From IMG/VR virus record IMGVR_UViG_3300025669_000174, positions 1-25,833 of that record: a stretch of 25,833 bases of DNA, one strand, 5' to 3'. The notes under the pieces were generated by a model. That model did not search any database, was not told the DNA's origin, and worked only from the letters and a program-made list of their open reading frames with translations. Below are positions 2,302 to 17,061 of the stretch, in pieces. Origin of the DNA: a virus. The first letter of the stretch is position 1. Each line of letters starts with the position of its first letter. Both the position numbers and the translations under genes were made by a program.

Positions 2302-2532
2302 TTATTTACATTTAATTTCCCATAGATGCTCTCCCCAACTTCTAACCTCTGCTACGTCACATGCTAAGAGAGCGTCTTTGTAATGGTCTGATTGTGTTAT
2401 TTCTGCCTCTACTATGCCGGTGTCTGTTACCTCTGGGACTATTGTTGTGTTTCTGTTTCTTAAAGCTGTTGCTCCCCACAAAATAATAAGGATTATGATG
2501 AGGAATAATAAGTAGTTGAGTAGCTTTTTCAT
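2302..2532 (-). CDS. Small single-pass membrane protein
   Basis: A 76-residue protein that begins MKKLLNYLLFLIIILIILWG, a short basic start followed by a strong hydrophobic helix (about residues 4-20), then a polar, acidic domain with two Cys near the C-terminus (CDVAEV and KCK). This predicts an inner-membrane anchor with the remainder outside; the two Cys could form a disulphide. There is no lipobox, so it is not an obvious outer spanin. The gene sits between other tiny genes with gaps under 10 nt. Function unknown. Confidence 0.6.
   Translation of the reverse strand: MKKLLNYLLFLIIILIILWGATALRNRNTTIVPEVTDTGIVEAEITQSDHYKDALLACDVAEVRSWGEHLWEIKCK
2457..2482. repeat. 26-bp direct repeat, copy 2
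   Basis: Second copy of the 26-bp sequence at 2089-2114, 368 bp away. Here it is read in a different frame and encodes LWGATALRN at the end of the membrane helix of the 76-residue protein. The sharing is therefore at DNA level, not protein level. Confidence 0.9.
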
Positions 2533-2538
2533 TATAGT

Positions 2539-2769
2539 TTAATTAATTTCAGCTAATGTAATATGGGCGTACCCATCAAACGTATGTGAGTTGATAAGAG
2601 CATCAATAGACTTGAGGTCTGCCGTTAATACATCCATATACATATTGCCATCAATTGCATCTTGGACTGTCATTGTTGGATTTGATAACAGATCGTGTCT
2701 CTCGGATTTAAGAGATACTATTTCTGCTTTGTGGTAGTCAGCTTGCATTAAGTGTTTTGCTTTTGTCAT
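2539..2769 (-). CDS. Hypothetical small helical protein
   Basis: A 76-residue hydrophilic protein with probable amphipathic helices (HKAEIVSLKSERHDLL and VLTADLKSIDALIN). It has no Cys, no membrane segment and no motif I recognise. Tight spacing with genes on both sides supports its being a real member of the leftward operon. Confidence 0.5.
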   Translation of the reverse strand: MTKAKHLMQADYHKAEIVSLKSERHDLLSNPTMTVQDAIDGNMYMDVLTADLKSIDALINSHTFDGYAHITLAEIN

Positions 2770-2773
2770 ATAT

Positions 2774-2878
2774 CTAGTCTTTAATTTTATATATTTTAGC
2801 TATGATAATTCCCATGATACATGCAAAAACTATTACTCCTGTAAGATACTTTACTGTTAACATATAGATTTCATTCAT
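2774..2878 (-). CDS. 34-residue single-pass membrane protein
   Basis: A very short reading frame from ATG at 2878-2876 to TAG at 2776-2774. The protein starts MNEIYMLTVKYL, has a hydrophobic run (about residues 12-28, GVIVFACIMGIIIA) and ends in a basic tail (KIYKIKD). It fills the otherwise empty gap between two genes. Charge distribution predicts the C-terminus inside. Function unknown; short size lowers confidence. Confidence 0.5.
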   Translation of the reverse strand: MNEIYMLTVKYLTGVIVFACIMGIIIAKIYKIKD

Positions 2879-2884
2879 ATATTT

Positions 2885-3352
2885 CTAATTAATATTTATT
2901 TTTGACGCGAAGTATGTTTCCATTTCCTCTTCGCTTTTTGTCTTTGGCCACGAGATCGACTCCTCTCGTACCTCTAATTTACTTACTAAATCATTAAACC
3001 CTCGTAGTTCTCCATCTGAACATTGAATCATTACTTTCCCGAACTTCATTATTGCCCTTTGGTTTTCATAGTAGAATGTTTTTAACTTCGTCATCTCAAG
3101 ATTTCCAGCAACAAATTCAGGAAGTTTCATTTTAACAGTATTCATTGTCCATTCTGAGTATCGTTCATTACATATATCCATGCATCCGACGATTTCCTTT
3201 ATAGTACGTTCATTCATAAACATCGTTTTGATTGCTTGTTGTATTGGGAGATGTTCTGATCCCTGCAATTTTATTCCCTTGAGTTTTTCATACTTATCGA
3301 TAACCCCGGCGTATGCCTCTTTGGGGAACTTTGTATTCTTTCTTGTATCCAT
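2885..3352 (-). CDS. Hypothetical protein, possibly replication-related
   Basis: A 155-residue, mixed-charge protein. The middle (PIQQAIKTMFMNERTIKEIVGCMD, cited here only as about residues 36-59) looks like the short helical region seen in some phage replisome-organiser or helicase-loader proteins, but the similarity is weak and I would not assign a name. The rest is helical with a C-terminal acidic stretch. It is preceded on its own strand by about 140 nt without a convincing gene. Confidence 0.55.
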   Translation of the reverse strand: MDTRKNTKFPKEAYAGVIDKYEKLKGIKLQGSEHLPIQQAIKTMFMNERTIKEIVGCMDICNERYSEWTMNTVKMKLPEFVAGNLEMTKLKTFYYENQRAIMKFGKVMIQCSDGELRGFNDLVSKLEVREESISWPKTKSEEEMETYFASKININ

Positions 3353-3494
3353 AAAGATTTTTTTAATGCGTAGATTAACTGTACTAGCCGTTATCCCCTC
3401 TGAAACACCCTACTGCTTGTCGTGATATAACATGAAGTCATATCAATAGTTTGTTAGCTGAGTAGTACAATAGGTAATACAGTTGAGTCACGCA

Positions 3495-3632
3495 TTAATT
3501 TGTAAATAAGATCTCTAGTGCTTTTCTAATAACCCCGGCGAATGACATATCATGTTTCTTCGCGTACCTCTTAACCTCTACAAAGGTTTTATTAGGCAAC
3601 CATAGGTTGTAGCTTTTTTCCTTTAACTTCAT
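3495..3632 (-). CDS. Ribbon-helix-helix DNA-binding protein (Arc/CopG-like)
   Basis: A 45-residue frame starting at the ATG at 3632-3630; the stop position is good to within two bases. The protein has a beta-strand segment (KSYNLWLPNKTF, residues 6-17), a first helix (VEVKRYAKKHD) and, after a short turn, a second helix (SFAGVIRKALEIL, residues 30-42). That is the ribbon-helix-helix plan, in which a dimer inserts its paired strand into the DNA major groove. Its start overlaps by 41 nt, in another frame, the 3' end of the upstream 60-residue gene. Being near the leftward promoter and a phased array of short dyads, it is a good candidate for a local repressor; this is inference. Confidence 0.7.
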   Translation of the reverse strand: MKLKEKSYNLWLPNKTFVEVKRYAKKHDMSFAGVIRKALEILFTN

Positions 3633-3833: not shown

Positions 3834-3976
3834 GTGAGCTAACCTAAGGCAAAAGAAACACATTGAGATTAAATTAAAAAATTAATAGTTAATTTTAATG
3901 GCATAACCTACAATAGGTGTTGATAAGTCTGTTTTTTGGCTAACCTTCCATAAAGATTTTTTACATTGTTACATTC

Positions 3977-4122: not shown

Positions 4123-4156
4123 TAACTTAACTTAACTTAACTTAACTTAACTAACT
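4123..4156. repeat. TAACT tandem repeat (six copies)
   Basis: Six perfect TAACT units (4123-4152) followed by a partial AACT. The 5-bp period is half a helical turn, and the array abuts the 10-bp array with only three bases between. Confidence 0.9.
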
Positions 4157-4720: not shown

Positions 4721-5014
4721 ATGGAATTAGATCAAAAGTATTTAGAATCAATAGTAAAACCATTGTGTGAATATCCAGAGGATGTTAGTACCGAGCGCAA
4801 GGTTGATGAAATGGGAGTATTAATTTCATTACGAGTTAATGACGATGACGTACCATTCATTATAGGAAAACGCGGGTATGTAGCATCTGCTATCAGAAAA
4901 GTTTTAAGATTATACGGCGCAAAACATAAGAAGAATATAACACTCCGGGTACTACAACCAGATGGGTATGTAAAAGAAGAAAGAGATCCTGTTACATCAT
5001 TTAGGCCGATATAG
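4721..5014 (+). CDS. KH-domain RNA-binding protein (KhpA-like)
   Basis: A 97-residue protein in which residues about 5-80 match the plan of bacterial KhpA: a helix (YLESIVKPLCEYPEDV), a strand (GVLISLRVNDDD), and the GXXG loop IGKRG (G49-G52) followed by the KH helix (VASAIRKVLRLYGAK) and a last strand (NITLRVLQ). KhpA is a single-KH RNA chaperone that in bacteria partners KhpB and affects RNA stability and translation. A phage copy could alter host or phage RNA fate. Its stop codon lies inside the start of the tRNA gene, so the two overlap by 10 nt. Family call is good; the phage role is inference. Confidence 0.75.
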   Translation: MELDQKYLESIVKPLCEYPEDVSTERKVDEMGVLISLRVNDDDVPFIIGKRGYVASAIRKVLRLYGAKHKKNITLRVLQPDGYVKEERDPVTSFRPI

Positions 5015-5076
5015 CCGAATGGTAAGGCACATCCTTTGTAAGGATAAGATTGTGGGTTCGATTCCTACTATCGGCT
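5005..5076 (+). tRNA. tRNA-Thr (anticodon TGT)
   Basis: A 72-nt cloverleaf: acceptor GCCGATA (5005-5011) with TATCGGC (5069-5075) and discriminator T5076. The D-stem is GCC/GGC (5014-5016, 5026-5028). The anticodon stem is 5030-5034/5042-5046 with one C-A mismatch at its base and loop TTTGTAA (anticodon TGT, 5037-5039). The variable loop has 5 nt. The T-stem is GTGGG/CCTAC (5052-5056, 5064-5068) with loop TTCGATT. CCA is not encoded. It would read ACA, a frequent Thr codon in these AT-rich structural genes. Confidence 0.9.
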
Positions 5077-6287: not shown

Positions 6288-8783
6288 ATGCAAAAAGTAA
6301 AGTTTTCAGAACTTGCTAAGTTTTTCCCAAAGCAACTCGAAGCGAGTAAAGCTGCTTCCTCCCATAAATTCACACTATATGGCGGAGCTATGGGAGGGGG
6401 AAAACTATTAAGACTTAATGAGGATATACCAACTCCCAATGGATGGATAAAAAATAAAGATATTATTGTTGGTGACTATGTATTAGGTGAAAATGGGAAA
6501 CCCGTCATGGTTATGGGTGTTACTGAACCAACAGAGGATGAAGCATACGAATTGTTTTTCTCTGATGGAACATCAATGATTGCTGGACAAAGTCATCTAT
6601 GGAAGACGATGACTATTCGAGAAAGAGGAATAGCATCTAGGCGAAATGATGTATATCGACTCAAAAGAAAACAAACAAGAGTAAAGCTAGGTACTGGTAA
6701 ACGACCAGATCTTGCAATACTGAATACAAAACGTACCTTTAATTATTTAGAACCCTCGACTGGGACAATAAGAACCACGAAAGAAATAGCTGAAACCGTA
6801 TTAGTTGATGGTAATAATAATCACTCTATAGAACAACCAGAGCCATTAGTATTGCTAGAGAAGAATCTACCGATTTCCCCTTATACACTTGGTGCTTGGC
6901 TCGGTGATGGAACCTCAATCAGTGGTGGTATAACTGGGATTGATAAAGAGATTTTTGAAAATATAGAGAGAGATGGGTTTACTGTCACTCATCATGCTAA
7001 TATAAAATCACACAATATTACTGGTTTTATTGGATTGATTCGTAAATATGGATTGTATAGAAATAAGCATATACCGAGTGAATATTTAAGAGCTTCGCAT
7101 AATCAGCGATTGGCACTTTTGCAAGGGGTTATGGATACAGATGGTTGGTGCGATAAAGACGGTGGTATAGGAATAACACTTAAAGATAAACGGTTATTTG
7201 AGAATGTAGTAGAATTGATTAGAACATTTGGCATCGTTGTTCATACTTCATTGGTGGAAAAGACGTGTTACAACAATGGTAAGATAGGAATGTATCATAA
7301 TGCTAAGTTTATAACTACCATCCCAGTATTCCGTTTAAGCAGGAAAGTGTCTCGACAAAAACATAAGATTAATTCTAGAAATAACAGGCGATATATCGTC
7401 GATGTACAGTTAGTTGGTAAACAGAAGATGAGGTGTATACAGATTGCAAACCATGATGGAATGTATATTGCTGGCAAGCAGTTTATACCAACTCATAATA
7501 GCTATTGGATACGTTGGCATGTAGCTGAGTATCTATTAGAGAAAACAATTGAAACTGGATTAAAAGGAATTGTAGGAGGTATATTCTGCGAGGATTATCC
7601 AGCATTAAAAGATAGACACCTTTCAAAACTAACATTTGAGTTCCCGGAATGGTTGGGAGATTTCCACGCAGATCATAAACAGTACGGAAAAGCATTCATT
7701 GCCAAGCCACAATATGGTAGTTGGGTAATAGTATTTCGTAACCTAGATGATCCTAGTAAGTATAAATCAGCAGAATTTGCCATTATTGCAGTAGATGAGC
7801 TTACTATGAACTCAAAAGACAAGTTTGATTTCCTTAGAACGCGTCTCAGGTGGCCGGGTGTCACTGATGTACGCTTCATTGCAGGAACAAATCCCGGTGG
7901 AATAGGGCATGGTTGGGTTAAACAATTATGGATGGATCGAGTCTTTGAAGAGACAGAGAAGGAAGCAGATCAATTTATATTCGTTCAATCTAAAGCAGAT
8001 GACAATCCCCTACTTAATAAGAGCTACTATGACTCATTAGATGGCTTACCAGAATCAATGCGTAGAGCATTCAAAGATGGTAATTGGGATGTATTTGAAG
8101 GACAAGCATTCACTGATTGGAACCAAAGTAAAGTAGTTGTAAAGCCTGAAGACATGCCGATCGAAGCTGAATATGAGAAGTTTATGTGCTTTGACTACGG
8201 TTTCACAGCTCCGGGTGCATTATACTGGTGTGCAATAGATTACGAAGGTAACATAATTGTATACAGAGAGATCTACAGCACTGGGAAGACTTACAAAGAT
8301 TGGGCTGAAGACGCTAGAGACTACTCAGGATTCACAGAGACAGAAGACCCATCACGACGTGAAGCAATCAAATACATAGTAGTTGGAGTAGATTCATTCA
8401 AGAAGAACGAACAAACGCGCAAGAGTGGTGTTGAAGTAATGCGAACAATATTCCCCATACGCTATGAACAAGCATATACAAACAGACATCAAGGTAAGAT
8501 TGAGTTCCATCAACGCTTAAAAGGCCCAACAATATTCTTCTGGAACACTTGTAAAGAAGCAATCAGAACAATACCAGAACTCATTACAGACAAGCATGAC
8601 ATTGAAGATGTTGATTGTGGAGAGGATCACGCCTATGACTCGATACGATACGGAATGATGAGCAGACGTATCAAGACTAAATCAGCTGCACCACTTGATC
8701 CAGTACAACAGAAGTTCGAAGAATGGAAGAGAAAGGATAGAGATTTTGCTAGTAAGACTAATAAACGTTTCCGCTCACTATAA
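6288..8783 (+). CDS. terL: Terminase large subunit, interrupted by a class 3-like intein
   Basis: An 831-residue precursor; removing intein residues 40-404 leaves a 466-residue terminase, a normal size. The Walker A motif is restored only after splicing: GAMGGGK (ending K39) joins S405. Walker B is FAIIAVDE (D503, E504), and GTNPGG (533-538) is the coupling motif. The C-terminal RNase H-like nuclease has acidic residues at D636 (CFDYG), D702 (GVDSF) and D784 (HAYDS). The enzyme is the ATP-driven motor and nuclease that packages DNA through the portal. Without splicing the P-loop is broken, so packaging should depend on intein activity. Upstream is the acidic gene; the next small gene starts in the stop codon (TAATG). 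Confidence 0.95.
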   Translation: MQKVKFSELAKFFPKQLEASKAASSHKFTLYGGAMGGGKLLRLNEDIPTPNGWIKNKDIIVGDYVLGENGKPVMVMGVTEPTEDEAYELFFSDGTSMIAGQSHLWKTMTIRERGIASRRNDVYRLKRKQTRVKLGTGKRPDLAILNTKRTFNYLEPSTGTIRTTKEIAETVLVDGNNNHSIEQPEPLVLLEKNLPISPYTLGAWLGDGTSISGGITGIDKEIFENIERDGFTVTHHANIKSHNITGFIGLIRKYGLYRNKHIPSEYLRASHNQRLALLQGVMDTDGWCDKDGGIGITLKDKRLFENVVELIRTFGIVVHTSLVEKTCYNNGKIGMYHNAKFITTIPVFRLSRKVSRQKHKINSRNNRRYIVDVQLVGKQKMRCIQIANHDGMYIAGKQFIPTHNSYWIRWHVAEYLLEKTIETGLKGIVGGIFCEDYPALKDRHLSKLTFEFPEWLGDFHADHKQYGKAFIAKPQYGSWVIVFRNLDDPSKYKSAEFAIIAVDELTMNSKDKFDFLRTRLRWPGVTDVRFIAGTNPGGIGHGWVKQLWMDRVFEETEKEADQFIFVQSKADDNPLLNKSYYDSLDGLPESMRRAFKDGNWDVFEGQAFTDWNQSKVVVKPEDMPIEAEYEKFMCFDYGFTAPGALYWCAIDYEGNIIVYREIYSTGKTYKDWAEDARDYSGFTETEDPSRREAIKYIVVGVDSFKKNEQTRKSGVEVMRTIFPIRYEQAYTNRHQGKIEFHQRLKGPTIFFWNTCKEAIRTIPELITDKHDIEDVDCGEDHAYDSIRYGMMSRRIKTKSAAPLDPVQQKFEEWKRKDRDFASKTNKRFRSL
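6405..7499 (+). mobile_element. Intein with LAGLIDADG endonuclease; Trp-Cys-Thr (class 3) signature
   Basis: Residues 40-404 of the precursor (365 aa). The first residue is Leu, so the usual Cys/Ser/Ala nucleophile is missing. Instead the class 3 set is present: Trp after the block B His (SHLW, H103 and W105), Cys at block F position 4 (MRCIQI, C383) and Thr in block G (PTHN, T402), ending in Asn404 with Ser405 as the +1 residue. In class 3 inteins the block F Cys starts splicing. The central domain has two LAGLIDADG-type motifs, LGAWLGDG (201-208) and LLQGVMDTDG (277-286), both with intact Asp, so the homing endonuclease looks active. The insertion point is between Lys and Ser of Walker A. 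Confidence 0.9.
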
Positions 8784-15963: not shown

Positions 15964-16398
15964 ATGAATAAATATGAATTATCTTATTTTGCTGGTTTAA
16001 TGGATGGAGAGGGATGTTTCAATATAAACTTCAATAAGAAGAGAAACACCTATCAAGCTCGCCTTACTATGTCTAACACTGATACTAATTTAGTTGAGTG
16101 GTGTAGAGATAGAGTCGGTGGTAAAATATACCTCCGCAAAAAATATGCTGTTCACCATAAAGATAAATATGAGTGGATGTCGTGGGGCGATAAAGATACA
16201 TTATTAAAGTTACTACAAGAGACACTTCCGTTTCTTGTAGGAAAACGTGAGCAGTGTAAAACTCTAATTCGTTTTCAGAAAACCTTGAATAGAAAAGGTG
16301 AAAATAAAAGAATTAAAGAGTCTGACAAAAAGCAACGTGAATTACTTTATAAACGTATTAAAATTTTGAATGCTAATGGGCTTGCAACGACTGAGTGA
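15964..16398 (+). CDS. LAGLIDADG homing endonuclease (intron-encoded, single motif)
   Basis: A 144-residue protein with one LAGLIDADG motif near the N-terminus (LSYFAGLMDGEG, residues 6-17, with the catalytic acidic residue), followed by the usual beta-rich DNA-binding saddle (NINFNKKRNTYQARLTMSNTD) and a basic C-terminus. One motif implies a homodimer cutting a near-palindromic site. The gene sits in the P6 loop, and its last codons and TGA stop form the P7 and P3 strands of the ribozyme, so gene and ribozyme share bases. Such enzymes cut intron-less alleles and copy the intron into them. It may also have maturase activity, which cannot be judged here. Confidence 0.85.
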   Translation: MNKYELSYFAGLMDGEGCFNINFNKKRNTYQARLTMSNTDTNLVEWCRDRVGGKIYLRKKYAVHHKDKYEWMSWGDKDTLLKLLQETLPFLVGKREQCKTLIRFQKTLNRKGENKRIKESDKKQRELLYKRIKILNANGLATTE

Positions 16399-16530: not shown

Positions 16531-17061
16531 ATGGTAAAAGGCAGTAAACATACAAAAGAATCATTAAGGAAAATAAGTATTAGTCAATCTAATCGCAATA
16601 TTGTAGCTTGGAATAAAGGTACAAAAGGGATTATGAAAGCTAATAAAACATCTTTTAGCAAAGGACATACTCCTCCTCATAAAGGGGAGAAGTTACGACC
16701 TGAAGCTATAGAGAATATTCGAAAAGCACATCTTCTAAGTAATAAGGGTAAAGGAAAAAACCATTATAATTGGAAAGGTGGAATCACTGAAGAAAATCAC
16801 AAAATAAGAACTTCGGTGGCATATAGAGAATTTAGAATGGGAGTATTAAGAAGAGATAGATTTACTTGTATAAAATGTGGTTATAAAAGTAAAGGAAGTC
16901 AATGTAAAGACATTGTAGTAGACCACATAAAGCCATTCTCCCTTTATCCAAAATTACGTCTCGTTATATCTAACGGGCGTACCTTATGTAAAAAATGTGA
17001 TTATAAATATGGGTATAACTATCATAGGGATAAAAATAAAATCAAGTTTAATGTGAAGTAA
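16531..17061 (+). CDS. HNH homing endonuclease with NUMOD3-like repeats (intron-encoded)
   Basis: A 176-residue protein. Residues about 7-70 hold NUMOD3-like DNA-binding repeats (HTKESLRKISISQSNRN and RPEAIENIRKAHLLSNKGK), the usual targeting module of phage HNH endonucleases. The nuclease domain has CIKC (113-116), VDHIKPF (D131, H132), SNGR (N148) and CKKC (153-156). The His that usually follows the last Cys is Asp157, so the enzyme may be an HNN/HND-type variant or weakened. The gene occupies the segment between P9.1 and the 3' splice site, ending 8 nt before the intron end. It is a second endonuclease in the same intron. Confidence 0.85.
   Translation: MVKGSKHTKESLRKISISQSNRNIVAWNKGTKGIMKANKTSFSKGHTPPHKGEKLRPEAIENIRKAHLLSNKGKGKNHYNWKGGITEENHKIRTSVAYREFRMGVLRRDRFTCIKCGYKSKGSQCKDIVVDHIKPFSLYPKLRLVISNGRTLCKKCDYKYGYNYHRDKNKIKFNVK

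Follow-up and report, generated by a model that had tools for sequence, protein, structure and literature searches.

How can a phage terminase be restored when its P-loop is interrupted by an intein that begins with leucine, a residue with which standard class 1 splicing cannot start? The locus lies in a viral sequence of 25,833 nucleotides (IMG/VR record IMGVR_UViG_3300025669_000174, positions 1 to 25,833; hereafter the window), and the interrupted terminase gene and all features of its intein are on the plus strand. Terminase inteins are the commonest in mycobacteriophages, where site a follows the Lys of the P-loop and precedes its Thr; a Trp-Cys-Thr (W-C-T) set of residues is carried by class 3 inteins (PMC5050341, Kelley et al. 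2016). Terminase inteins have also been reported from crAss-like phages (PMC7886860). An earlier note on this DNA, made from the sequence alone, had proposed a class 3 intein here, describing the class as a small group and the terminase P-loop as a notable host site. Both descriptions need correction: 1,701 class 3 inteins were present in nr in 2020, 82.5% of them with LAGLIDADG motifs (PMC7891396), and the P-loop is the classic published site TerL1-a (PMC5050341). The idea that class 3 inteins have a phage origin comes from Tori and Perler, as relayed in PMC3196547.

The interrupted open reading frame, at positions 6288–8783, encodes 831 residues, with the intein in frame and no in-frame stop codon. 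Judged by its sequence, it is a phage terminase large subunit (TerL), as indicated by a Walker A motif, a Pfam Terminase_3 match in the C-extein (1.5e-9), matches to PHROG terminase families and homology to other TerL proteins. The N-extein (6288–6404) comprises 39 residues ending in the Walker A sequence GGAMGGGK, and is 42–50% identical over 38 residues to the intein-free TerL proteins of two uncultured-virus contigs (L024 and L021). The C-extein (7500–8783, stop codon included) starts with the +1 residue, Ser (7500–7502), and aligns by tblastn with phage TerL at 28–32% identity, with 85–98% of its length covered among the matches listed. For annotation purposes, this TerL should be counted as 466 residues once spliced, as opposed to 831. 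A tRNA gene (5005–5076; Rfam RF00005, 68.5 bits) lies upstream of the packaging genes in surroundings with few long open reading frames.

The intein itself spans positions 6405–7499 and is 365 residues long, from Leu1 to Asn365 (TerL residues 40–404). The insertion begins LLRLNEDIPTPNGW and ends FIPTHN, after which the terminase resumes at Ser405. Excision in silico restores the Walker A region as GGAMGGGK/SYWIRW (the slash marking the junction), which is unbroken in intein-free relatives. Three such relatives, L024, L021 and L022, are uncultured-virus contigs that were retrieved with a pattern for the uninterrupted GGGKSYWI site. Compared with the joined window TerL, L024 is 47% identical over 444 columns and reads GGAMGGGKSYWIRW at the site, the same residues as the joined window protein; L021 is 41% identical over 471 columns; and L022 is 54% identical over the first 237 residues and 33% in its other piece. 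The L022 terminase is split mid-gene by a frame change at about 3894–3898 (reverse strand), with its tblastn pieces meeting at mature residue 237, a disruption that might reflect either an error in sequencing or a gene that is broken.

Because these intein-free relatives align across the joined site, the insertion point can be placed precisely, after the Walker A Lys and before the Ser, and residue 1 of the intein is Leu. The claimed start in Leu, without Cys, Ser or Ala, is thus borne out by both the reading frame and the relatives. The earlier note had named a different true junction before residue 40, with a Cys or Ser, as the finding that would undo its reading; this candidate was rejected, given that L024, L021 and L022 fix the junction and the intein-free relatives read GGGKSYWIRW without a gap. 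Moreover, no Cys or Ser is present between Gly32 and the core of block A. Of the six IMG/VR hits that matched the pattern exactly, none was an intein-free allele of the same virus, and a search for direct or inverted repeats at the intein borders gave only one imperfect 16-nt pair, arising from similar codons (IPTP and IPTH).

Within these borders, the splicing blocks can be assigned throughout. Block A (LLRLNEDIPTPNG; 6405–6443) has no nucleophile at position 1. Block B (6558–6605) contains His64 (B:10) and Trp66 (B:12; codon 6600–6602), block F (7425–7472) contains Cys344 (F:4; codon 7434–7436), the proposed first nucleophile, and block G, the FIPTHN region (7479–7499), contains Thr363 (G:5), His364 and Asn365. 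In TerL numbering these residues correspond to Leu40 (6405), His103 (6594), Trp105 (6600), Cys383 (7434), Thr402 (7491), His403 and Asn404 (7497), followed by Ser405 at +1 (7500); Trp105, Cys383, Thr402, Asn404 and Ser405 all sit at the positions given for them previously. The only Cys residues of the intein are 249, 288 and 344 in intein numbering, the last being Cys383 of TerL. From composition, the chance of a random Trp, Cys and Thr at three fixed positions is about 2e-5.

An alignment of 169 inteins, recruited by similarity to the window and therefore leaning towards class 3, has Trp at B:12 in 168 of its members, and all 169 share His B:10, Cys F:4, Thr G:5 and Asn G:7. Leu occupies position 1 in 14 of the 169, the window included, and by sequence is a minority yet recurrent choice. 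One position departs from the majority. Most class 3 inteins have a His at F:13 that is reported to aid Asn cyclization (PMC7891396), and the window has Gly. This counts against splicing, but only weakly, Gly being the second most common residue there (35 of 169 aligned inteins, including the window).

Comparison with solved structures points to the same class. A phmmer search of the PDB placed the mycobacterial class 3 DnaB inteins first (6rix at 3.8e-15, then 6riy and 6bs8), with the class 1 intein gp41-1 far weaker (wild type 6qaz, 9e-4; W-C-T mutant 6riz, 3.6e-5) and LAGLIDADG endonucleases also among the weaker matches, far behind the DnaB inteins. With a 41-sequence profile, the class 3 DnaB inteins reached 5e-40, PI-SceI about 2e-16 over the endonuclease part and wild-type gp41-1 1.5e-12. 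On these sequence comparisons, wild-type gp41-1 is the nearest class 1 relative among solved inteins, at a much weaker level than DnaB. An AlphaFold2 model of the intein (mean pLDDT 93.2, pTM 0.90) displays an intein fold joined to a LAGLIDADG endonuclease fold. Using Foldseek, the model matched PI-SceI, an intein plus endonuclease, over its whole length (1.6e-18), and the splicing domain matched class 3 DnaB inteins over 69 columns at 0.9–1.0 Å rmsd, 39% identity and a TMt of about 0.8. In a tree built without a broad class 1 set, and in which most deep branches are weak, the nearest sequences are all W-C-T inteins. The class 3 assignment is therefore well supported by motif, sequence neighbors, placement in the tree among W-C-T inteins and the modeled fold. 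Alignment to class 3 inteins and structural modeling had been suggested in the earlier note as a check, and its class 3 reading came through both: the W-C-T columns are complete and conserved, the model is an intein fold with a pLDDT of 93, and the class 3 DnaB inteins are the nearest solved relatives.

Between the splicing blocks, the sequence and the model predict a two-motif LAGLIDADG homing endonuclease. The first motif (TLGAWLGDG; 6885–6911) was placed by alignment and the PI-SceI match, and the second (LQGVMDTDG; 7119–7145) by Pfam LAGLIDADG_3 (1.7e-6). The catalytic Asp is kept in both (Asp168 and Asp246), and the intein is predicted from its sequence to be probably active and mobile. 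Elsewhere in the window, two adjoining endonuclease-like genes (15964–16398 and 16531–17061) both match PHROG HNH families, the former with a LAGLIDADG-like start (AGLMDGEG). This pair lies just downstream of a weakly major-head-like open reading frame, and no Rfam intron was found.

Four near-identical contigs (the window, L002, L003 and L018), whose similarity is too high to gauge purifying selection, have zero changes within the intein, which is present in each of the virus's other contigs. The contig L003 differs from the window by a five-base indel at window positions 4123–4127, the contigs being otherwise near-identical. Base composition is not decisive for a recent foreign acquisition: the intein has a GC of 0.36 and a GC3 of 0.26, compared to 0.40 and 0.33 for the C-extein, and 365-codon windows of neighboring genes range from 0.375 to 0.412 in GC and from 0.16 to 0.35 in GC3, such that the intein lies slightly below its neighbors in GC and inside their range in GC3.

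We are highly confident that a full-length class 3 intein, with a HINT domain that a two-motif LAGLIDADG endonuclease interrupts, separates the Walker A Lys from the Ser in this phage TerL, and it is predicted to splice by the class 3 route. We infer this mechanism, with high confidence, from kinship: the order of block F Cys, then the +1 residue, then Asn has been established for other class 3 inteins (PMC5222942, PMC7664689). By analogy, Cys344 would attack the Lys39–Leu40 peptide bond to form a branched thioester, and the N-extein would then pass to Ser405 by transesterification. Cyclization of Asn365, assisted by the block G His364, would release the intein, and an O-to-N acyl shift would yield GGGK-S with an intact P-loop. 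Because the P-loop would be intact in the spliced protein, we propose that the packaging ATPase may be active only after splicing. The endonuclease, in turn, would cleave terminase genes that lack the intein, at their P-loop site, allowing the element to spread. A further proposal is that conditional splicing, for example redox control via Cys344 or a response to temperature, gates assembly of the packaging motor and makes the intein a regulator rather than a parasite; we regard this as very unlikely.

Several other explanations of the locus were weighed against class 3 splicing. The intein might have decayed and no longer splice, leaving a dead terminase gene or a virus that uses another copy. 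One class 3 intein, Arth_1007, is a known pseudogene (PMC3196547), and the Gly at F:13 could be taken the same way; however, the known pseudogene lacks the Cys F:4 that is kept here, nothing has been lost from the catalytic residues, the two endonuclease Asp residues or the frame, and the two exteins are likewise undamaged and can be aligned with relatives. We thus hold decay to be highly improbable. Even harder to credit is a class 2-like reaction in which Ser+1 itself makes the attack on the N-terminal scissile bond, with no need for the block F Cys. A position 1 without a nucleophile is a trait of class 2 as well, but reports of class 2 inteins are confined to KlbA (PMC3196547) and the host here is TerL. 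In addition, the window intein has the full set of Trp B:12, Cys F:4 and Thr G:5, its closest relatives of solved structure belong to class 3, and in those class 3 inteins that have been tested the +1 residue is unable to initiate the reaction (PMC5222942). That the insertion is some other in-frame element or an assembly chimera has a negligible probability, with nothing found in its favor, and was in effect already refuted, since the same arrangement recurs in three other contigs with an intein that is 100% identical in amino acids, a high-confidence model predicts a HINT domain with a LAGLIDADG endonuclease, and intein-free relatives align across the joined junction.

Searching with the intein by tblastn matched 700 phage records, 636 of them with a coverage of at least 80%. 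Inteins with W-C-T following the P-loop Lys of a terminase occur in Mycobacterium phage Kanye (GK/AL, THN/T), Escherichia phage kvi (GK/AL), Klebsiella phage Muenster (GK/LL), Bacteroides phage B124-14 (GK/EL), Salmonella phages SPLA3 and PAT1 (GK/AL) and the crAss-like cr111_1 (GK/AF). Among the matches listed, all 156 full relatives (77 from IMG/VR, 79 from bacterial genome contigs), which are a sample of the closest relatives and not a census, have W-C-T. Residue 1 in the 77 viral relatives listed is A in 38, L in 10, M in 8, G in 8, Q in 5, P in 3, R in 2, D in 2 and C in 1, the N-junctions being extrapolated from the alignment, such that a few (e.g. L072 and L080) may be off by one or two residues. 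An intein after GGxxGxGK, as in the window, was seen in 14 of the 77 viral and 3 of the 79 genomic relatives among the matches listed. By path length on the tree, L028, L027 and L031 are nearest to the window, in no well supported small clade. A single clade of all GGxxGxGK terminase inteins was considered and is unsupported, with 8 changes along a tree whose deep branches are weak.

This wider set shows that P-loop class 3 inteins are common in uncultured phages, and its rare forms combining Cys1 with a block F Cys could bear on the origin of class 3. One such form, in Lactococcus phage AM5 (L015; KY554772.1), runs from CLDIMT to VTHN over residues 32–385 of an AAA protein and has Cys1, Cys F:4 and Thr G:5, with Ile at B:12. 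On the tree it falls on a long branch within the W-C-T inteins, adjoining the SPLA3 and cr111_1 TerL inteins; it might have reverted to class 1 or represent an intermediate. Another (L092; IMGVR_UViG_3300049456_000051, about 2501–3580) combines Cys1 with all three W-C-T residues; the large phage open reading frame that holds it does not resemble a terminase.

Set beside known systems, the window intein is of a known kind, a class 3 insertion in the terminase P-loop with no departure from known members. The TerL1-a intein of Kanye gp10 (L001) is likewise class 3, with W-C-T and LAGLIDADG, between the P-loop Lys and Ser/Thr, and by our reading of the text of PMC5050341 its junction is the published site a. 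It differs in having Ala1 rather than Leu1 and Thr rather than Ser at +1, in its terminase exteins, which are of another type, and in its intein sequence (about 31% identical). Closer are the TerL inteins of uncultured phages at GGxxGxGK (L027, L028, L031 and others), which share the Walker A site and the full W-C-T at 36–45% identity; these belong to different phages, and we found no annotation or description of them. Leu1 recurs in the uncultured-phage inteins L028, L031, L033, L036 and L038 and in L107, from a bacterial genome contig. The Muenster intein (L013) is also class 3 with Leu1 in the P-loop (GK/LL) and a THN/T C-junction, but it sits in the T4-type terminase of a jumbo phage and is 26% identical. 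The mycobacterial class 3 DnaB inteins (6bs8, Msm DnaB1; 6rix, Mch DnaB1) share W-C-T and the splicing domain fold, whereas they are mini-inteins without an endonuclease and reside in a helicase. Finally, AceL NrdHF (PMC7891396) is similarly class 3, metagenomic and probably from a phage; in contrast to the window intein, it is split, has Met instead of Trp at B:12 and carries a GIY-YIG endonuclease between its halves in place of an internal LAGLIDADG domain.
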